A stretch of 64,000 nucleotides of DNA from Planctomycetaceae bacterium (GCA_002726205.1 PBSL01000058.1:1-64000); one strand, 5' to 3'. Shown: positions 38,265 through 48,566, counted from the stretch's first letter. Notes: generated from the sequence alone by a model not told the origin. A program made the numbers and translations.

Positions 38265-38467
38265 TCCCGCCTCAATAACCTGCCAACAAAGCGACGTACG
38301 ATCGCAAAATGTCCTCACCGAACACCCTGGTGTGAGTTGATCACTTCCAACATCTGCCCGGGTCGTCGGTGGTTTCAGGAACCAAGCACGCTCGAAGTCA
38401 GACGGTAACAACGGACTGGGACGCACCGCCGTTTGCGGTGTTGACTTGTAACGAGAGGAATTTTCGC

Positions 38468-40981
38468 ATGGGTCGGATCTTGAACAGGCTGGTTTTGAGC
38501 ACGGTGGTTACCGTGCTGTCTCTGTCGCTGGTGGCTTCGGCTGCTGCTCCGATAAAGCCCAAGGGGCTGGGAGATCCCGGTACTCTGACATCGCTGAAGG
38601 TCGCTCCCAACCTCAAGGGGGTTGGGATCACGGTTCGAGGCCGCGATGCCCGTCAGCAGTTGTATGTCACCGGAGTCTACTCCAGTGGCCAACTGCGTGA
38701 TCACACCCATTCGGTCAAGTACAAGGCCGCCCCGGCCGGGATCGTTACCGTCGACAAGAGTGGCCTGGTGATACCGGTGAGCGACGGCGATGCCGTGGTG
38801 ACCGCGATCGGTGCCGGCGGAAAGACCGCCACACTGAAGGTTCGCGTCGAAGGCGTGGTCAAGCAGATCCCGATCAACTTCGGGAACCAGATCGTACCGA
38901 TCTTTACCAAGCTCGGCTGCAACAGCGGCGGATGCCACGGCAAGGCGAGTGGCCAGAACGGTTTCAAGTTGTCGCTGCTGGGTTTCTACCCCAATGACGA
39001 TTTCGAGTTCCTGGTCAAGGAGGGGCGCGGTCGTCGGTTGTCTCCCTCGTCACCGGCAAGCAGCCTGCTGCTGACGAAATCCGTCGGCAGTTCACCGCAC
39101 GGTGGCGGCAAGCGAATGGACGTTGGGAGCTACGAGTACCGGATGGTCTTTCGCTGGATCGAGCAGGGCATGCCCGAGGGCAGCGACTCGGATCCGGTCG
39201 TGGTCAATATCAAATGCTACCCCGCCACACGCCTGATGAATCCCGGCAGTGATCAGCAGATCACCACGATCGCCACCTACAGCGACGGCACCGTCGAGGA
39301 TGTCACCCGGATGGCGCTCTACGAGGCCAACGACACCGAGATGGCCGAGGCGACCGTGACCGGACTGATCAAGACGCTCGATCTGGCCGGCGAAGTCGCC
39401 ATCATGGCTCGTTACCAGGGGCAGGTGGCGACCTTCCGTGCCACGGTGCCGCTGGGAGCCGAACTCGGGCAGTTGCCCGCCGAAAAGAACCTGATCGACA
39501 AGGCCGTCTTCGGCAAGCTCAAGCTGCTGGGGATTCCCGCTTCACCGGTCTGCGACGACGCCACGTTCATGCGTCGGGTGCATGTCGACGTGACCGGGAC
39601 CCTGCCCGCCCAGGTAGACGTTGCCAAGTTCCTGGCCGACAAGGACCCCAAGAAACGGGACAAGATGATCGACCGTCTGCTCGACAGTCCCGAGTACGCC
39701 GACTATTTCACCAACAAGTGGAACATGGTCCTGCGGAACAAGAAGCGGGGCAACGACGACACCGGGTCGACCTACGCCTTCTACCGCTGGATCTGGAACA
39801 GCCTCTATACCAATCGGCCTTACGATCAGTTTGTCCGTGAGATCATTGCGGCGTCGGGCCAGTGGACCGAGTCGCCGGCGGTTGTCTGGTATCGCGAGGT
39901 CGACCAGGTCAATGAGCAGGTCGAGGACACGGCGCAGCTGTTTCTCGGATTGCGGATCCAGTGTGCCCGCTGCCATCACCACCCCTTCGAGCGGTGGAGC
40001 CAGAACGACTACTACGGTTTCTCGGCCTTCTTCAGCCGGGTGACCAAGAAGAACATCAACCTGCCTGGCTTCTCTCGCCAGGCACGCGATCGCCGGATTG
40101 TTCACAATCCCGGCAGCGCCACTGCGAAGAATCCCCGCAACGGCCTCAGCCTCAAGCCGGCCGGTCTGGGTTCAGAACCGCTGGAGATCGCAGCCGACCG
40201 GGATCCCCGGCAACTGCTGGCTGACTGGATGGCAAAGAAGGACAACCCGTTCTTCGCCCACGCCCTGGTCAATCGCTACTGGAAGCACTTCTTTGATCGA
40301 GGCATTGTCGAACCCGAAGATGACATGCGGGCGACCAACCCGCCGTCGAATCCTCAGCTGCTGGAAGGGTTGGCCGGGCACTTCATCACGAGTGGTTTCG
40401 ACCTGAAGGGGCTGGTGCGGACGATCTGTCAGTCGAATACCTACCAGCTCAGCTCGCTGCCGAACGACCACAACCTCAAGGACAAGCAGAACTTCTCGCG
40501 GTACTACCCGAAGCGACTGACCGCCGAGGTGCTCTACGATGCCTTCCACCAGGTCACCGGGACCACCCAGGGCTACGGCGGGCTGCCTGTTGGCACCCGG
40601 GCCGTGCAGCTGCCCGATCCGTCGAAGGGTCCCTACTTCCTGAAGGTCTTTGGACAGCCCCAGGCGGATACCGCTTGCGAGTGTGAGCGGTCGCAGGAGG
40701 CCAACCTGGCCCAGAGCCTGCACCTGCTCAACAGTTCCGAGGTCCAGAACAAAATCGCCAACGGCAGTGGCCGCGCGGCAAAACTGGCCGGAGAAAAGGA
40801 ACGAGCCAACGACGACAAGGTCAAGGAACTCTATCGCTGGGTCTACTCCCGGCAACCTGACTCCGACGAGATGAAGATCGCCCTGGCGCACCTTGCCAAG
40901 CACGAGAAGAACGTCAAGGTCGCCTGGGAGGATATTGTCTGGGCCCTGATCAATACCAAGGAATTCCTCTTCAACCACTAG
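38468..40981 (+). CDS. Secreted DUF1549/DUF1553 protein with Ig-like domain and Cys-His motifs
   Basis: About 837 residues from ATG 38468, preceded by GAGAGGAA. A signal peptide (residues 1-27) leads to a bacterial Ig-like (BIG2) domain at about 40-125 (VTVDKSGLVIPVSDGDAVVTAIG). Residues about 145-245 contain CNSGGCHGKASG (a CX4CH pattern) in a cytochrome-like segment. A DUF1549 domain (about 345-545) includes CARCHHHPFERW (a CxxCH pattern), and a DUF1553 domain (about 575-830) ends the protein (LVNRYWKHFFDRG; LLNSSEVQNKI). This architecture is characteristic of planctomycetes, with predicted periplasmic or surface location; function is unproven. First of three large secreted-protein genes. 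Confidence 0.96.
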   Translation: MGRILNRLVLSTVVTVLSLSLVASAAAPIKPKGLGDPGTLTSLKVAPNLKGVGITVRGRDARQQLYVTGVYSSGQLRDHTHSVKYKAAPAGIVTVDKSGLVIPVSDGDAVVTAIGAGGKTATLKVRVEGVVKQIPINFGNQIVPIFTKLGCNSGGCHGKASGQNGFKLSLLGFYPNDDFEFLVKEGRGRRLSPSSPASSLLLTKSVGSSPHGGGKRMDVGSYEYRMVFRWIEQGMPEGSDSDPVVVNIKCYPATRLMNPGSDQQITTIATYSDGTVEDVTRMALYEANDTEMAEATVTGLIKTLDLAGEVAIMARYQGQVATFRATVPLGAELGQLPAEKNLIDKAVFGKLKLLGIPASPVCDDATFMRRVHVDVTGTLPAQVDVAKFLADKDPKKRDKMIDRLLDSPEYADYFTNKWNMVLRNKKRGNDDTGSTYAFYRWIWNSLYTNRPYDQFVREIIAASGQWTESPAVVWYREVDQVNEQVEDTAQLFLGLRIQCARCHHHPFERWSQNDYYGFSAFFSRVTKKNINLPGFSRQARDRRIVHNPGSATAKNPRNGLSLKPAGLGSEPLEIAADRDPRQLLADWMAKKDNPFFAHALVNRYWKHFFDRGIVEPEDDMRATNPPSNPQLLEGLAGHFITSGFDLKGLVRTICQSNTYQLSSLPNDHNLKDKQNFSRYYPKRLTAEVLYDAFHQVTGTTQGYGGLPVGTRAVQLPDPSKGPYFLKVFGQPQADTACECERSQEANLAQSLHLLNSSEVQNKIANGSGRAAKLAGEKERANDDKVKELYRWVYSRQPDSDEMKIALAHLAKHEKNVKVAWEDIVWALINTKEFLFNH

Positions 40982-41066: not shown

Positions 41067-41225
41067 CTACCTACCCCCGACCTACCCCGAACTGACCCTG
41101 GCCCGCCAGGGTTTCCCGCGTCGATCCGGTTCCACGTTGCCTGCTGGTCAACATCTTGCCAACGGGACAGCACGTTCAACCCGGAAATTCCCGCACACCG
41201 ATGACAACCGCAGGAAGGCATGCCC

Positions 41226-44200
41226 ATGTCATTCGCCCCGCTCAACGACTTGCAACGACTCGGATCGGTTTTGGTCCTGGCCCTGGCCACGCTGCTGGCA
41301 ACCGACACGGCTCAGGCCCAGTTGCCGCAAACGCGGCTCCAGTCGGTCTTTCCACCAGGTGGTCAGATCGGGAGCACCGTGGAACTGACGGTCGCCGGGG
41401 CGGATATCGACGAGGTCAACGCGATGTCGTTCTCGCACCCGGGAATCACCGCCGTGCAGAAGACGACCGAGGCGAACGGGAAAAAGACACCCGTCGCCAA
41501 CACGTTCGTCGTCAAGATCGACGGAAAGGTCCCCGCAGGATTCTACGATGTCCGTATCAGTGGACTCTTCGGTACCAGCAACCCGCGGACATTCGCCGTT
41601 TCGTCGCGAAAGCACTTGCGGGAATCCGAGGCCAACAACGCGTTCACCGAAGCCGACGAGATGGAACTGGGCAGCACCCTGGCCGGGCAAATCGGTGCGG
41701 CTGCCGACGTGGATTACCTGAAATTCACCGGCAAGCAGGGGCAGCGGGTCATCATCGACTGCCAGGCCGTGCGGATCGACACGCAGTTGAACGCGGTCGT
41801 GGAGGTCTATCGCCACACCGGAAACCGGGTTCAGAGATTGGCTTTCGGACGCCGTCAAATCGGTCACGATCCCCTGGCGGATGTCACGTTGCCGGCTGAT
41901 GGCGAGTACATCGTGCGGATTTTCGACGAGAGGTACAGCGGGGGCGGTACGTACGGTTACCTGTTGACGGCTCACACCGGGCCGCACATCGACTATGTGC
42001 AACCGGCCGCCGGCGAACCCGGAAAAACCGGGACTTTCACACTGTTTGGCCGCAACCTGACCGGGGGGCAACCGTCCGGCGTCCGTATCGACGGCCGTGA
42101 ACTGCAGAGGCTGGTCGTCAAGATCGCCGTTCCCAAGACCGGGCTCGACCGGACCATCGGCGGTCGTGTCGAGGCGGTCAGTGCCGGACTGGATGCCTTC
42201 GAGTATTCACTGAAGACCGATTCGGGCGTCTCCAACCCCGTGCCGATCTACTTCACCAGCGGGGCGACGGCTGTTGAAGCCGAGCCCAACAACACCGCCG
42301 AGAAGGCACAGAAGATCCAGGTGCCCGGCGAGGTGACCGGCCAATTCCAGTCCCGCGGCGACGAGGATGTTTTCGAGTTCGCAGCGAAGGCCGGCGACGC
42401 CTATTGGCTGGAAGTCTTCTCGCAGCGGATCGGCGCCCCGGCCGATCCGTACCTGATCGTTGACCAGGTCCAGGTGGACAAGGAGGGCAAGGAAACCGCC
42501 CCGAAACGATTGACGGCCCAGGATGACAACGGGGCCAACCTCTTCGGTAACCACTTCGATACGCTGACCGACGATCCCGTCTACAAGTTCACCGCACCGG
42601 CCGAGGGCAAGTACCGGATCACCGTTCGCGATCGCAACTTCGAGGCCCGTGGGTCGGCCCGCATGGTCTACCGCCTGGCGATCCGCAAGGAAACTCGTGA
42701 TTTCCGTGTCGTGGTCGTTCCCACGTCCCAGAACACCGGGGCGAACAGCAACACCGCGGTGAGTTTCGGCGTCGGCCTGAGAAAGGGCGATCACTTCGTC
42801 GTTCGCGCGTTGGCCTTCCGTCGGGATGGGTTCAACGGGGAGATCGAGATCACTGCCGAGGGACTTCCCAAGGGGGTCATCTGCAAGGGGACCACGATCG
42901 GTGCAGGTCAAACCAGTGCGCCGCTGGTCTTTTCGGCCAGCGAAGATGCTCCCGAGTTGACAGCGGTCGTGAAATTGGTCGCGAAAGCTCGGGTTGAAGA
43001 TCTTGCCAAGGTCAAGATAGTCACCGATGCCGGGAATGCCCTGACCGCCGCGGTTGCCGCGGTCCCAAAGGCTGCCGCCGCGATCGTGGCGGCGACTGGT
43101 CCGGCGAAGAAGGCTCTCGACGCGAGGACTGTTGCCGAGAAGAAGTACAACGCCGAGAACACGGTCTCGACCGCTGCCGCCAAACTCAAGGCCACGGCCG
43201 ACAAGAAGGTGGTGGACACCAAGAAGGCAGCCGCTGCCGCCGGGACCGCTGCCGCTGCGGCCAAGAAGAAATCGACCGCTGCGGCCAAGGCTCTTGCTGA
43301 TGCCCAGGCGGCCGCGAAGAAGGCCGCCGATGATGCAGCCAAGAAGAAGGCGGCCGCTGCGGTCAAGGCCGCCACCACGGCCAAGGCCGCCGCCGACAAG
43401 GCGGCTGCCGATACCGCCAAGACGGCCACGACCACCAAGAAGGCCGCCGACGACGCGGCCAAGGCCAAGACCGCTGCCGACAAGAAGGCGACCGACACCG
43501 CCAACCTCACCAAGGCCTCCAAGAGCGTTTTGGACAAGGCCGACGCCGCTTCCAAGGCCGCGCAGGCCAAGCTGGTCGCCGCGCAGAAGGCCAAGACCGA
43601 CGCCGACAAGAAGGTGGTGCAGACGACCGCTGCACTGGCTGCAGCCAAGACAGCCAGGGATGCTGCCGCGCGGCAGGTGACTCACATCGCCCGCACCGGG
43701 ACCATCGTGATCGATGGCAACCAGAACCAGACGGCCGTTTCGCGACTGTCGCAGTCGCTGGTCGTTTCGGTCATGAAGGAAAAGGCTCCCTTCCAGGCGC
43801 AGACGAATATCTTTCGCGTTGATGCCAACCGCAACCGGCAGATCCTTGTTCCCGTCAAGCTGGCCAAGAGAGACGGATTCGACAACAAGGTGACCCTGAC
43901 ATTCGTCGGGCAGCCCAAGAATATCCAGGTTCAGAACAAGCCGATCAACAAGGGCAAGAACTCGGAGGTCCTGCGGATCTTCCTGCCGGCCAACGCGCCC
44001 CTGGGAACTTATGCTCTGTATCTGAGGAGCCAGGGCGAGGTTGCCTACCGTCGCAACGTCTTTCGTGTTGAGCGGGTCAAGGCCGAACAGACCAAGGTCA
44101 CCGCGACCCTGAAACCAGCCGCCGACGCCTTGAAGGCTGCGACGGCCGTCAAGGTGAAAGCCGACAAGTTGGCTGCTGACACCGCGAAGGCTGCCGAAGC

Positions 44201-44879
44201 AGCGAAGAAGGCCGCCGCCGCCGCCGCCAAGAAACTGACCGACGCCCAGGCCGCGGCCAAGAAGGCCGCCGATGACGCGGCCAAGAAAAAGGCCGCCGCC
44301 GCCGTCAAGGCGGCGACAGAAGCCAAGGCCAAGGCCGACAAGCTGGCGGCCGATACCAAGAAAGCCGCCGATACGGCGGCCGCTGCCAAGGTCAAGTCCG
44401 ACGCAACGGCCAAGCAGGCCACCGACAAGGACAAGGCCGCCAAGGCCGCCAAGGCCGCTGCCGACAAGGCCGTGACAGCGGCCAACAACGCGGCCAAGGC
44501 CAAGAAAGTCAACTCCTTTCCGGCCTCGACACCGATCGTGATCAGTATTCGCAACAACCCCGCCACGCTGAAAGCCGACGTGCCCGGGAAAGGCGCCCTC
44601 AAACGAGGAGCCAAGATCGACGTCAAGGTCACCGTGACACGGGCCAACGGTTTCACCGGTCCGGTGACACTCAGCCTGCCGCTGCCGCCGGGTGTTGCCG
44701 ATGTCAGCGCCAAGGCGGTGACGATTCCCGCCGACAAGACCGCCGGCGTGCTGGCGATCTCTGCCGGCCCAAAGGCCACCGAGGGGGCACTGGCCAACAT
44801 GGTCGTGCGGGCCACGATGCAGTACGACGGCCGCGAGGCGTTGGTGGATCAGCCCGTCACGATCAAGGTGGCCAAGTAA
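41226..44879 (+). CDS. Giant secreted PPC/Ig-like protein with Ala/Lys-rich segments
   Basis: About 1217 residues. I chose ATG 41226 because AGGAAGG lies seven bases upstream; ATG 41220 is too close. After a signal peptide (to about residue 33) come a TIG-like domain, a PPC domain (about 135-255, ESEANNAFTEADEM start), another Ig-like segment, a second PPC domain (about 340-490, EAEPNNTAEKAQ start) and beta-sandwich parts. Two long Ala/Lys/Asp tracts (about 605-820 and 955-1100; DNA about 43030-43690 and 44075-44520) predict helical or coiled-coil rods; each is followed by a beta-sandwich segment. Each tract contains one copy of a 26-residue module also found in the next gene. Probable cell-surface protein; role unknown. 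Confidence 0.92.
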   Translation: MSFAPLNDLQRLGSVLVLALATLLATDTAQAQLPQTRLQSVFPPGGQIGSTVELTVAGADIDEVNAMSFSHPGITAVQKTTEANGKKTPVANTFVVKIDGKVPAGFYDVRISGLFGTSNPRTFAVSSRKHLRESEANNAFTEADEMELGSTLAGQIGAAADVDYLKFTGKQGQRVIIDCQAVRIDTQLNAVVEVYRHTGNRVQRLAFGRRQIGHDPLADVTLPADGEYIVRIFDERYSGGGTYGYLLTAHTGPHIDYVQPAAGEPGKTGTFTLFGRNLTGGQPSGVRIDGRELQRLVVKIAVPKTGLDRTIGGRVEAVSAGLDAFEYSLKTDSGVSNPVPIYFTSGATAVEAEPNNTAEKAQKIQVPGEVTGQFQSRGDEDVFEFAAKAGDAYWLEVFSQRIGAPADPYLIVDQVQVDKEGKETAPKRLTAQDDNGANLFGNHFDTLTDDPVYKFTAPAEGKYRITVRDRNFEARGSARMVYRLAIRKETRDFRVVVVPTSQNTGANSNTAVSFGVGLRKGDHFVVRALAFRRDGFNGEIEITAEGLPKGVICKGTTIGAGQTSAPLVFSASEDAPELTAVVKLVAKARVEDLAKVKIVTDAGNALTAAVAAVPKAAAAIVAATGPAKKALDARTVAEKKYNAENTVSTAAAKLKATADKKVVDTKKAAAAAGTAAAAAKKKSTAAAKALADAQAAAKKAADDAAKKKAAAAVKAATTAKAAADKAAADTAKTATTTKKAADDAAKAKTAADKKATDTANLTKASKSVLDKADAASKAAQAKLVAAQKAKTDADKKVVQTTAALAAAKTARDAAARQVTHIARTGTIVIDGNQNQTAVSRLSQSLVVSVMKEKAPFQAQTNIFRVDANRNRQILVPVKLAKRDGFDNKVTLTFVGQPKNIQVQNKPINKGKNSEVLRIFLPANAPLGTYALYLRSQGEVAYRRNVFRVERVKAEQTKVTATLKPAADALKAATAVKVKADKLAADTAKAAEAAKKAAAAAAKKLTDAQAAAKKAADDAAKKKAAAAVKAATEAKAKADKLAADTKKAADTAAAAKVKSDATAKQATDKDKAAKAAKAAADKAVTAANNAAKAKKVNSFPASTPIVISIRNNPATLKADVPGKGALKRGAKIDVKVTVTRANGFTGPVTLSLPLPPGVADVSAKAVTIPADKTAGVLAISAGPKATEGALANMVVRATMQYDGREALVDQPVTIKVAK
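43299..43376 (+). repeat. Ala/Lys module copy 1 (PPC protein)
   Basis: 78 bases encode a 26-residue module (starts DAQAAAKKAADDAA, ends VKAAT). The protein sequence is identical to copies at 44241-44318 and 47136-47213, but 13 and 9 of the 26 codons differ from those copies respectively, all synonymously at the third position. Confidence 0.93.
44241..44318 (+). repeat. Ala/Lys module copy 2 (PPC protein)
   Basis: Same 26-residue module as copy 1, in frame near residue 1006 of the same protein. It is flanked by KKLT upstream, as in copy 3, whereas copy 1 has KALA, so copies 2 and 3 may be closer to each other by context. Copy 2 differs from copy 3 in 12 codons, all synonymous. Confidence 0.93.
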
Positions 44880-44978
44880 CGACTCGCGTAAACGTGGCAG
44901 CGGAGATCGCCTCCGCCGCCAACCGACGAACCACGGAAATTCCAACAGACTGAAAGCCGATTTCGGGGGCACTGACAC

Positions 44979-47900
44979 ATGCGTACTTTCCTGACCCGCA
45001 GCCTGATGATCGCCGGTACTCTCGCCGTGTCACTCCTGGTGGCCACGGCGGCCGACAAGAAAAAGGACGCCAAGGCGCCGGAAATCAAGCCGGAGGATCC
45101 CAAGTTGGGCCGCAAGGTGGATTTCCAACGCGACATCTACCCGATCCTCGAGCAGAACTGTATCGCCTGCCACAACGTGGCGATCAGTGAGAGCAAGCTG
45201 GTCATGGAAGAGATCAAGGACCTCGTCAAAGGAGGCAAGCGAGGAACCTCGCTGGTCGCCAAGCAACCCGACAAGAGCCTGGTCTACCTGGTCGCCGCCC
45301 GCCGGGCCAAGCCGCACATGCCGCCGCTGCCCAACAGCCAGGACGCCAAGGCATTGACACCCCGCGAGCTGGGGATCCTCCGCCAGTGGATCCTGGAAGG
45401 GGCCAGTGGAAGTGAAGGCGGAAAGAAGCGGGCCGTCAAGTTTGCGCCCCTGCCGGTTTCCGCCCGTTCCATCTACAGCGTCGCCATTTCCCCGTGGGAT
45501 CGCTTTGCAGCGGCCGGTCGCGCCAACCAGGTGGAACTCTACGACATCACCCTGGGGGAAAGAGTGTCGAGACTGGTCGATCCGAACCTCAACGGTCTGA
45601 AATTCCAGGACAAGCCGATGTATCCCGGCGGTGCCGCCCATCGCGACTTCGTGCACTCGCTGGCCTTCAGCCCTGATGGCAACCTGCTGGCCACCGGTGG
45701 TTTTCGCGTGGTCAAGTTATGGAAACGGGAACTGGCCCGGCAGGCAGCCAAGCTCGCTGCCCCGGCGGCAATCACCGCCACGGCGGTCAGCGCCGACGGT
45801 CGAACCGCGGCGATCGCCAGCGGTGACAACACCATCCGGCTGCTCAATCTCGCCGACGGAAAACCCGGCAAGATTCTCAAGGGACACACCGCTGCTGTTA
45901 GCGGCCTGTCCTTCTACCCGGCCCCGGAAGAAGCCGCCCGTCTGGCGGCGGCAACCGCTGCTGCCGGGGTGGCCCAGACTGCTGCAGAGACCGCGGCCAG
46001 CGCCGCCGCTGCCGGGGTCAAGGACTTTGACCCGAAAGCACTGAAACTCAAGGGCGATGCAATCGCCGCCGAGAAGAAAAAACGTGCCGATGCCAAGACC
46101 GCGGCCGACAAGGCCGTCGTGGCCGCCAAGGCTGCCGTGGCCACTGCAACGAAGACCCAGGCCGATTTCGACAAGTTGGCCGCCAGCGGGAGCCTGCTGG
46201 TTTCCGGGGGCCAGGACAAGGGACTGCGGATCTGGAAGGTTGTTGATGGCAGCCCGGTTCGGCAGCTGGCCACGCCCGCGGCGATCAACGACGTCACCTT
46301 CACCAAGGACGGCGCCCGCGTCGTGTCGGCACATGCCGACAACCTGGTGCGGGTCTGGAACGTGGTCGAACCAAAACCGGCAGCCAAGAAGAAGGCCGCC
46401 GCTGACAAGAAGAAGAAAAAGGCTGCCGCTGCCGGTCCCCAACCGGCATTGGTGATCAAAGGTCACACCAAGCCCGTCACCGGTGTTGCCTTGATCCTGC
46501 CGGCCGGGACACAGATCGTGACCGCCAGCCAGGATGCCACGGTGCGGATTTTTGATGTGACCAAGGGCAACCAGATCCGCAGCATCGCCGTCGGGGCCCC
46601 GGTCACCGATGTGGCCGCCCGTCCCAATGGGACCGCGATTGCCGCAGCGGCGGGCACCTTTGCCCGGTTGTATGACCTGAATGGCAAACAAGTTGCCGAG
46701 CTCAAAGGAGACGTCGGAGAACAGAGAACGCTTGCCAATACGGTCGAAGAGCAAAGCGTCGCCAAGCAGCTTGTCGGGGTCGCCGACGGCAAACAGAAGG
46801 CGGCCGACAAGACGTCGAAAGAGCGAATCGCAGCAGCCAAGAAGGCGCAAGAAGCCAAGGTCGCAGCTGACAAGAAGGTCGTTGAACAGCAAAAGAAGTT
46901 CAACGCCGCCAAGACCAAAAGTGATGCGGCGACCAAGGCGGCCGACACTGCTGCCAAGGGAGCCGTGACGGCCAAGAAGACGGCCGAGGTCGCGACAAAG
47001 AAGTCGGTCGCGTTGAAGAAGACTGCCGCCGATACGAAGAAAGTCGCCGACGAGATGACCAAGAAGGCGGCCGCTGCCACGAAGGCGGCCGACGCGGCCA
47101 AGAAGGCGGCCGTGGATGCGGCCAAGAAATTGACCGACGCTCAGGCGGCCGCCAAGAAGGCTGCCGATGATGCCGCCAAGAAGAAAGCGGCCGCAGCCGT
47201 CAAGGCCGCGACCGACGCAAAGGCCGCAGCCGACAAGGCAGCTGCCACCACCGCCAAGGCTGCAGCCGACACCAAGAAGGCCGCCGCTGCCGCCACCAAG
47301 AAGTCAACCGATGCCGCGGCCGCCTCGAAGGCCGCCGATGTTGCCAAGACCAAGGGCGATGCCGCGGTCAAGACCGAGCAGGCCAAGGCCGACACGACGA
47401 AGAAGGCCAAGGATGCTGCGGATAAGGAAACCGCCAAGCAGAAAGGTGAACTCAAGAAACAAACCGACGGACAGGCCTCGTCGGTTCGAACACAGAAGCT
47501 CGCTGACAAGGCATCGACTGACGCGCAGGCCAATTTGAAGGCGGCCAATGCAACCAAGACGGCACAGGATGCCTACCAGAAGAAGACTGACGCGATAGTC
47601 ACGACGGCTACCGCAACCGAAAAAGCCGGGAGCGCGAAGCCGATCAGCGTGGTGGCCTTTTCGCCCGATGGCAGCTTTCTTATGACCGGTGGCGCGGACC
47701 AACTGATTCATGTCTGGTATGCGGCCAACGGAAAACCTGTTGAGACCATCAAGGGACATGCTGGGGCGATCACCGCCTTGGCAGTTTCGAACAGCGGGTT
47801 GGTTGTTTCCGGTGGTGCCGACAAGTTGGCGGCCGCCTGGGACCTGACACCTCGCTGGTCGCCTGCCGGGCAGTTGGGAACCAAGCCAGCCACGCCCCTG

Positions 47901-48566
47901 GATGTCTCCGAATCCCCCTTCGTCAGCCGGGTGCTGACGGTCGACTTCAGTCGGGACGGCAAACAACTGCTGACCGGAGGCGGAGATCCGTCGCGGAGCG
48001 GAGAATTGATGATCTGGGACGTGGCCAAGAAGAGCCTCGTCAAGGAGTTCAAGGATGCTCACAGTGACACCATCTTTGGTGCCGAGTTTTCTCGTGACGG
48101 CAAGCAACTGCTCTCCGGTGCCGCCGACAAGTTCGTGAAGATCTTTGACATCGCCACCGGCAAACACGTGCGCAGTTTCGAAGGGCACACTCACCACGTG
48201 CTCGATGTCAGCTGGAAAGCCGATGGCACTTCGATTGCCAGCGCCGGGGCCGACAACGTGATCAAGGTCTGGAACGTCGACACCGGGGAACAGCGTCGTA
48301 CGATTGGGGGATACTCCAAGCAGGTGACCTCGCTTCGATTTGTCGGAATCGGTGAGAACCTGATCAGTTGTGGTGGTGACAAGTCGGTCCGCTACCACAA
48401 GGCCGGCAACGGCCAGAACTATCGTAGTTTCAGCGGCGGAACCGATTTCATGTACGCAGCCGCGTCGAGCCGGAGCGAGTCCTTCGTGGTCGCCGGCGGT
48501 GAAGACGGTGTCGTCAGAGTCTGGAATGGCAAGGATGGAAAGGTCATCAAGGCCTTCATGCCGTAA
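44979..48566 (+). CDS. Secreted cytochrome c / WD40 protein with Ala/Lys-rich inserts
   Basis: 1195 residues. A signal peptide (1-25) is followed by a planctomycete-type c-type cytochrome domain (about 45-150): heme site CIACH near residue 60 and a candidate axial Met in KPHMPPLPN. WD40 repeats follow (about 165-330, 405-560, 890-1195), with clear HxxxVxxVxFSPDG and GGADxxIxVW units. Three Lys/Ala tracts split the propeller: about 317-405, 468-487 and 575-885. The first replaces the turn within one WD repeat, between GHTAAVSGLSFYP and SGSLLVSGG. Probably periplasmic or surface-bound electron-transfer/scaffold protein. About 100 bases after the PPC gene, likely co-transcribed with it. Confidence 0.94.
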   Translation: MRTFLTRSLMIAGTLAVSLLVATAADKKKDAKAPEIKPEDPKLGRKVDFQRDIYPILEQNCIACHNVAISESKLVMEEIKDLVKGGKRGTSLVAKQPDKSLVYLVAARRAKPHMPPLPNSQDAKALTPRELGILRQWILEGASGSEGGKKRAVKFAPLPVSARSIYSVAISPWDRFAAAGRANQVELYDITLGERVSRLVDPNLNGLKFQDKPMYPGGAAHRDFVHSLAFSPDGNLLATGGFRVVKLWKRELARQAAKLAAPAAITATAVSADGRTAAIASGDNTIRLLNLADGKPGKILKGHTAAVSGLSFYPAPEEAARLAAATAAAGVAQTAAETAASAAAAGVKDFDPKALKLKGDAIAAEKKKRADAKTAADKAVVAAKAAVATATKTQADFDKLAASGSLLVSGGQDKGLRIWKVVDGSPVRQLATPAAINDVTFTKDGARVVSAHADNLVRVWNVVEPKPAAKKKAAADKKKKKAAAAGPQPALVIKGHTKPVTGVALILPAGTQIVTASQDATVRIFDVTKGNQIRSIAVGAPVTDVAARPNGTAIAAAAGTFARLYDLNGKQVAELKGDVGEQRTLANTVEEQSVAKQLVGVADGKQKAADKTSKERIAAAKKAQEAKVAADKKVVEQQKKFNAAKTKSDAATKAADTAAKGAVTAKKTAEVATKKSVALKKTAADTKKVADEMTKKAAAATKAADAAKKAAVDAAKKLTDAQAAAKKAADDAAKKKAAAAVKAATDAKAAADKAAATTAKAAADTKKAAAAATKKSTDAAAASKAADVAKTKGDAAVKTEQAKADTTKKAKDAADKETAKQKGELKKQTDGQASSVRTQKLADKASTDAQANLKAANATKTAQDAYQKKTDAIVTTATATEKAGSAKPISVVAFSPDGSFLMTGGADQLIHVWYAANGKPVETIKGHAGAITALAVSNSGLVVSGGADKLAAAWDLTPRWSPAGQLGTKPATPLDVSESPFVSRVLTVDFSRDGKQLLTGGGDPSRSGELMIWDVAKKSLVKEFKDAHSDTIFGAEFSRDGKQLLSGAADKFVKIFDIATGKHVRSFEGHTHHVLDVSWKADGTSIASAGADNVIKVWNVDTGEQRRTIGGYSKQVTSLRFVGIGENLISCGGDKSVRYHKAGNGQNYRSFSGGTDFMYAAASSRSESFVVAGGEDGVVRVWNGKDGKVIKAFMP
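45925..47640 (+). repeat. Region of Ala/Lys-rich inserts in the WD40 protein
   Basis: Three Ala/Lys/Asp/Thr-rich tracts (about 45925-46200, 46381-46440, 46690-47640) dominated by GCC/AAG codons interrupt the WD40 propeller. The largest is about 310 residues and lies between two WD blades. The 26-residue module sits inside the largest tract. Confidence 0.85.
47136..47213 (+). repeat. Ala/Lys module copy 3 (WD40 protein)
   Basis: Same 26-residue module as in the PPC protein, in frame near residue 720 of the WD40 protein. It is in a different gene about 2.8 kb downstream, so sharing is not a simple local duplication. Confidence 0.93.

Follow-up and report, generated by a model that had tools for sequence, protein, structure and literature searches.

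Antiparallel coiled-coil hairpins are known from several protein families. Periplasmic adaptors (MacA/AcrA/HlyD) carry alpha-helical hairpins that extend from beta-rich domains and contain a signature motif, and the tip of the adaptor hairpin docks onto an outer-membrane channel. The motif borne by adaptor hairpins is the RLS motif (PMC8277102). In SMC/Rad50-type proteins, long antiparallel arms form within one chain and favor certain lengths, and the arm length of Smc is functionally periodic, with periods of 91 residues and 3.5 residues (PMC5344682). Here, we analyze a comparable arrangement in a 64,000-nucleotide stretch of DNA from a Planctomycetaceae bacterium (GCA_002726205.1, PBSL01000058.1:1-64000; in the following, the window, with W denoting its genome), in which two neighboring genes, A and B, encode secreted proteins that are predicted to carry three long hairpins with the same peptide at their tips. 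Coiled-coil hairpins are known; what is new is that the tips of hairpins encoded by two neighboring genes appear to evolve in concert.

The likeness to either family is one of analogy only and does not imply family membership. Unlike periplasmic adaptors, A and B have no adaptor Pfam family, A carries two hairpins, and the tips appear to be copied between two genes. Pfam scans of A and B revealed no HlyD, lipoyl, or beta-barrel domains, and the shared peptide contains no Arg, Leu, or Ser and therefore no RLS motif at the tip. Compared to SMC/Rad50 proteins, for which the likeness serves as a working analogy, A and B lack ATPase heads and a hinge, are secreted, show a length step of 42 residues per hairpin (21 per arm), and are predicted to end in a short turn instead of a domain.

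With respect to the exchange of sequence, the closest parallel is concerted evolution by gene conversion, in which, as here, copies within a genome are more similar than orthologues, and DNA-similar blocks of various ages are found. In contrast to the usual conversion of repeated segments, the exchange suggested here takes place between different neighboring genes and is centered on the hairpin apex, so that the two arms stay matched; no case of apex-centered exchange between neighboring genes was found in the open-access literature. Furthermore, A, B, and the gene upstream of them belong to or accompany the planctomycete PSCyt1/PSCyt2/PSD1 (DUF1549-DUF1553) clusters. PMC2754498 names both DUF1549 and DUF1553, and the open-access literature on PSCyt/DUF1549 clusters yielded no account of hairpins or tip exchange.

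One peptide encoded three times with different codons

The 26-residue module DAQAAAKKAADDAAKKKAAAAVKAAT is encoded in frame three times, twice in the open reading frame (ORF) of A and once in that of B (positions in the window):

Gene A, 41220..44879, plus strand: PPC-domain protein with two predicted coiled-coil hairpins (A1 and A2); Pfam PPC at residues 381-470
Module copy 1, 43299..43376, plus strand: ORF residues 694-719 by translation, apex of predicted hairpin A1; predicted turn at A 700-704 (43317-43331)
Module copy 2, 44241..44318, plus strand: ORF residues 1008-1033 by translation, apex of predicted hairpin A2; predicted turn at A 1016-1018 (44265-44273)
Gene B, 44979..48566, plus strand: c-type cytochrome (PSCyt1) with WD40 propellers and predicted hairpins B1 and B2; PF07635 and PF00400 matches
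Module copy 3, 47136..47213, plus strand: ORF residues 720-745 by translation, apex of predicted hairpin B2; predicted turn at B 727-730 (47157-47168)

The first-pass annotation of this DNA had described identical copies that differ in 13 (copies 1 and 2), 9 (copies 1 and 3), and 12 (copies 2 and 3) of 26 codons, and retranslation reproduced this exactly, with each difference being synonymous and affecting a single nucleotide. Independent codon draws for the same peptide according to local codon usage gave an expectation of 12.4 +- 2.4 differences, so the silent sites of the copies are near random. With zero amino-acid changes in 26 codons and silent sites near saturation, the proposed constraint on the peptide at the protein level holds, as does its presence in both of the neighboring secreted proteins.

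The inserts that harbor the module are rich in Ala (32-44%) and Lys (approximately 20%). Nevertheless, the longest exact peptide matches among the three inserts comprise 26, 26, and 32 residues, compared to at most 12 residues in shuffled or first-order Markov sequences of equal composition, and the sharing of the module is therefore not due to chance. There is nothing special about the limit of 26 residues, which marks only the point where copy 1 starts to differ: the identity of copies 2 and 3 extends across 32 residues, and likeness fades outward on either side. Across the whole hairpin, the codon similarity of copies 1 and 3 was 66% compared to 52% expected, a slight residual excess.

The module lies at the predicted apex of three hairpins

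AlphaFold2 (AF2) models of the two proteins, with predicted local distance difference test (pLDDT) scores of 85.6 and 88.3, contain paired helices at the positions of the module:

Hairpin A1, 43002..43667, plus strand: A residues 595-816; AF2 model m76a12cab4ff2, first helix 105 residues (569-673) and second helix 112 residues (679-790), numbered as in the model (add 26 for A numbering)
Hairpin A2, 44058..44492, plus strand: A residues 947-1091; AF2 model, first helix 69 residues (921-989) and second helix 73 residues (993-1065), numbered as in the model (add 26 for A numbering)
Hairpin B2, 46713..47633, plus strand: B residues 579-885; AF2 model ma23dd1dedef9, helices of 148 and 155 residues

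In A1, A2, and B2 alike, the predicted turn coincides with the KAAD of the module, which therefore would form the hairpin apex. Thus, the helical nature that had been suggested for the peptide is borne out as a prediction, while the free-standing module that had been envisaged gives way to the turn of a hairpin. With a rise of 1.5 A for each residue, B2 is predicted to reach approximately 22 nm.

The three insertion sites are common to orthologues within the family, whose inserts are rich in A/K/E/Q and vary 2- to 3-fold in total length. In these relatives, a PEDxxLKK-type turn motif is central, and its offset from the middle is nearly constant at any length: the numbers of residues on either side of it are 79/86, 100/107, 121/128, and 142/149 for A2, and 82/79, 103/100, 124/121, and 166/163 for B2, with arm-versus-arm slopes across relatives of 1.0 and 0.99. 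The ADDAAKKK of the module is at most 4 residues away from that offset in all three W hairpins, and the turn-to-end asymmetry of copy 1 is about that of other A1 hairpins. Furthermore, the mean periodogram of nonpolar residues (382 arms) peaked at a period of 3.50, with a power of 5.4 compared to approximately 0.8-1.6 at the other periods printed. Heptad periodicity is hence accompanied by two helices, a short turn, and matching arms, as seen in the AF2 models and the arm slopes. The module is, as modeled, the shared tip bend of three long antiparallel coiled-coil hairpins in two secreted proteins encoded next to each other.

Hairpin lengths and matched arms

Certain hairpin lengths recur among the relatives: of the loci counted, 32 have a B2 of exactly 161 residues, and 23 have an A1 of exactly 95. 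Out of all steps from 5 to 60 residues, a step of 42 fitted best, and distinct lengths fell on the resulting ladder more often than by chance (10 of 46, p 1e-7); the ladder comprises 161/203/245/287/329 for B2, 95/179/221/305 for A1, and 165/207/249/291 for A2. A step of 42 residues per hairpin corresponds to 21 residues, i.e., 3 heptads, per arm. The same increment separates W from its closest relative among loci with both genes, PBOJ01000136.1 (Planctomycetaceae bacterium RS395; L100, with L and G numbers denoting the loci and genomes compared), whose globular parts are 69-83% identical: the arms on either side of the A2 turn are 86/96 residues long in L100 and 65/75 in W, i.e., exactly 21 residues longer each.

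Five loci (L101, L103, L105, L137, and L171, mostly labeled Gimesia), from which no A1 insert was extracted, have an A2 of 79 residues and a B2 of 297 residues; the combination of a short A2 and a long B2 indicates that the hairpins were not expanded together. Pairing of A and B rods of equal length was sought and not found.

Evidence for concerted evolution of the tips

For a comparison of tips, hairpins were aligned on the turn without gaps, using a window of +-13 residues. Tip identity was 0.49 for paralogues within a genome, 0.41 for orthologues between genomes, and 0.33 for paralogues between genomes (permutation p <= 1.5e-4), and the within-genome excess was present at a register shift of 0 only, and is therefore not due to composition. 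In line with this, the tip tree clusters by lineage for W/L100, L098, L139, L131/L142, and L108/L151/G008, whereas it clusters by hairpin in a Schlesneria-like clade. For W and L100, an approximately unbiased (AU) test rejected full orthology of the tips (p 0.016 for amino acids, p 0.0009 for nucleotides). Moreover, at two columns of the apex, all three copies of W share one residue and all three copies of L100 another, while there are zero orthologue-specific columns. Judged from sequence comparison, the tips evolve in concert within genomes.

Blocks of DNA similarity centered on the tip were found for several hairpin pairs. For A1-A2 of L100, the block extends from -65 to +52, with 83-100% identity across most of it, and long near-identical DNA repeats are retained approximately 1 kb apart. 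Further blocks extend from -60 to +49 for A2-B2 of G008, from -90 to +69 for A1-B2 of L139, and, at lower identity, from -30 to +39 for A1-B2 of W. Tracts of DNA identity are thus strong in L100, weaker in G008 and L139, and just weak in W. The recent A1/A2 block of L100, together with the 21 additional residues in each arm of its A2, suggests that tip-spanning DNA is copied between hairpins.

Among the W copies, the synonymous divergence (dS) over -30 to +40 was 0.76-1.41, compared to 1.2-1.3 between the globular parts of W and L100, so the copying in W would be approximately as old as the split of W and L100. The first-pass annotation had set recent duplication against drift as the two expectations; a third case appears to apply, namely that DNA spanning the tips was copied long ago and has since been under ordinary purifying selection, with relatives that retain DNA similarity representing younger stages. 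It had also named gene conversion plus codon bias as a competing explanation, of which the copying between hairpins is upheld, but not as a recent event in W. The ratio of nonsynonymous to synonymous divergence (dN/dS), proposed as a measure of selection between copies, was 0.15-0.23 over the copied block in W and 0.09-0.18 in globular parts; the block as a whole is therefore not exceptional and only the apex stands out, the exact module being free of any change. Selection on the apex peptide is real and would be purifying, of ordinary strength over the block while leaving the apex unchanged. On this evidence, the puzzle of the shared peptide is resolved by old tip copying plus purifying selection.

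Proposed explanation and alternatives

Our explanation, which we consider very likely as a whole, is that A carries two long antiparallel coiled-coil hairpins and B one, that all three extend from beta-rich extracytoplasmic domains, and that they share a common apex, which would consist of the final helical turns of the arms and the KAAD turn. A cap spanning the tip would be copied at the DNA level from one hairpin to another, through gene conversion or other recombination, and this copying may also extend the two recipient arms simultaneously. Subsequently, purifying selection, strongest at the apex, would hold the peptide while silent sites randomize. As a weaker component, the hairpins may be rigid spacers, or arms used for docking, that join proteins of a secreted PSCyt/DUF1549 complex, a role that we regard as putative. 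A further extension, in which neighboring extracytoplasmic proteins would tune the reach of their arms through the exchange of tip caps between their genes, frequently by three heptads per arm at a time, with the shared tip serving as a lineage-specific docking code for a secreted cytochrome/DUF1549 complex, strikes us as unlikely.

Several points weigh against this explanation. The permutation test and the tip tree ignore relatedness, and the AU test concerns one genome pair, for which a DNA tree with one orthologous pair was not rejected (p 0.24). The Schlesneria-like clade has an A2 tip unlike the A1 and B2 tips, and identical tips are therefore not required for function. The hairpin itself is known from prediction, with a pLDDT of just approximately 56-79 near the tips, and the turn motif stems from a hand-written pattern that is indistinct in some sequences (e.g., 179-residue A1 hairpins). 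Moreover, 36 of 46 distinct lengths, including those of W A1 and B2, are off the 42-residue lattice, and no correlation was found between the lengths of A and B hairpins across relatives, so simple side-by-side pairing receives no support.

Among the alternatives, selection could act on tip identity itself, with all tips docking into one partner or into each other through a sequence-specific docking or cross-linking code, in line with the binding or cross-linking module considered in the first-pass annotation. The lack of any amino-acid change in three copies of 26 codons with near-saturated silent sites, the two apex columns that are species-specific across all copies of W and L100, and the related tips, carried by a secreted leucine-rich repeat (LRR) protein of both genomes and by a DUF1549 protein from G054 (see below), would fit this idea. 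However, the deviating A2 tips of the Schlesneria-like clade, the LRR tip that was not homogenized with the others, and the uncorrelated lengths of A and B hairpins argue against it, and copying plus ordinary constraint already explains the data; we therefore consider it possible, though rather doubtful. A single old triplication that predates the divergence of W and L100, after which each copy was inherited separately under selection without later exchange, would agree with a dS among W copies similar to that between W and L100. It is very unlikely, though, given that the AU test for W and L100 rejected full orthology, that two columns are fixed by species and none by orthologue, that L100 A1 and A2 are 90-100% identical at the DNA level around much of the tip, and that the same is seen independently in other lineages.

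While identical peptides with many silent differences inside one gene pair might also result from selection against long exact DNA repeats, which would actively diversify codons and thereby avoid recombination or slippage, the observed differences show no excess over the random expectation, which led us to reject such diversification; in addition, silent divergence equals that of ordinary orthologous parts, and L100 retains its near-identical repeats. This alternative is accordingly highly improbable. Even less credible, to the point of being negligible, is low-complexity convergence, i.e., Ala/Lys helices that became alike through composition or slippage without common origin: the Ala- and Lys-rich composition of the inserts speaks for it, but it is ruled out by the exact matches far beyond those of shuffled and Markov sequences and by the register-shift control with its peak at 0 only, and the DNA-level blocks in relatives contradict it as well.

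Low-complexity Ala/Lys stretches of planctomycetes are readily dismissed as filler. Under our explanation of tip copying and purifying selection, those studied here resemble ordered rods that follow measurable rules: the turn is central, the arms match, certain length quanta are preferred, and the tips are concerted between genes. The locus may thus illustrate clearly how a hairpin can become longer while its arms stay balanced, and it may offer a natural series of spacer lengths within a conserved, uncharacterized secreted cytochrome cluster, making the role of the PSCyt/DUF1549/WD40 cluster testable through arm-length and tip swaps.

Gene neighborhood and related sequences

Two further features of the cluster complete the picture:

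DUF1549/DUF1553 (PSCyt2/PSD1) secreted protein gene, 38369..40981, plus strand: first gene of the conserved cluster; Pfam PF07583 E 4e-50, PF07587 E 2e-46
Small hairpin B1, 45924..46187, plus strand: inside the first propeller of B; B residues 316-403, AF2 helices 316-348 and 360-403

Of 85 loci holding A and B, 69 also have a homologue of the DUF1549/DUF1553 gene immediately upstream of A and in the same orientation, and A itself was matched in 25 of 30 genomes searched. Protein B combines an N-terminal PSCyt1 domain (PF07635, residues 61-116, E 5e-7), which contains a CxxCH haem motif, with WD40 repeats (PF00400, E 7e-75), and C61, C64, H65, and M114 are unchanged in all 51 sequences. The B1 hairpin comprises 88 residues in W and 88-89 residues across W, L100, L098, L099, and L038, and is absent from most relatives; in several class-level relatives, B is approximately 500 residues long and devoid of a hairpin. 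Between propeller blades, B contains the Lys-rich linker KPAAKKKAAADKKKKKAAAAGPQP (window 46371-46446), the length of which varies among relatives. In four loci labeled Verrucomicrobia/Verrucomicrobiales or Chthoniobacteraceae (L156, L162, L164, and L175), the same B was found, its B2 insert comprising 225-319 residues.

Searches of the hairpins against Pfam and PDB sequences gave no match and hence no solved relative of B2 by sequence, and an NCBIfam search returned nothing. Fold searches with B retrieved WD40 propeller proteins, and those with A retrieved PPC-like and other beta domains as well as long ciliary proteins at low template-modeling (TM) scores; for the hairpins as such, no match stood out in either case.

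When the 47-residue module was searched in 99 relatives, just two weak matches were obtained, both from G054. The sequence of the module is therefore lineage-specific, even though the hairpin is general. In G054, a DUF1549-type protein (L089:3-2993, minus strand) is interrupted by a helical-looking Ala/Lys insert with the related tip KDEAGKKATAAAVKKATDAK, and the hairpin may thus have reached a third member of the cluster. A fourth, diverged copy of the module occurs elsewhere in the window genome, in a secreted LRR protein that ends in a hairpin-like Ala/Lys segment with the tip KTDDDKKK followed by a poly-Lys tail (G000:C62, L004:63-1319, minus strand). This terminal segment is present in both the W and L100 genomes (sister genome: L181:1276-2499, minus strand), with a tip that is alike between the two and not homogenized with the operon tips. 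The LRR protein adjoins an ATP-binding cassette (ABC) permease that resembles MlaE.

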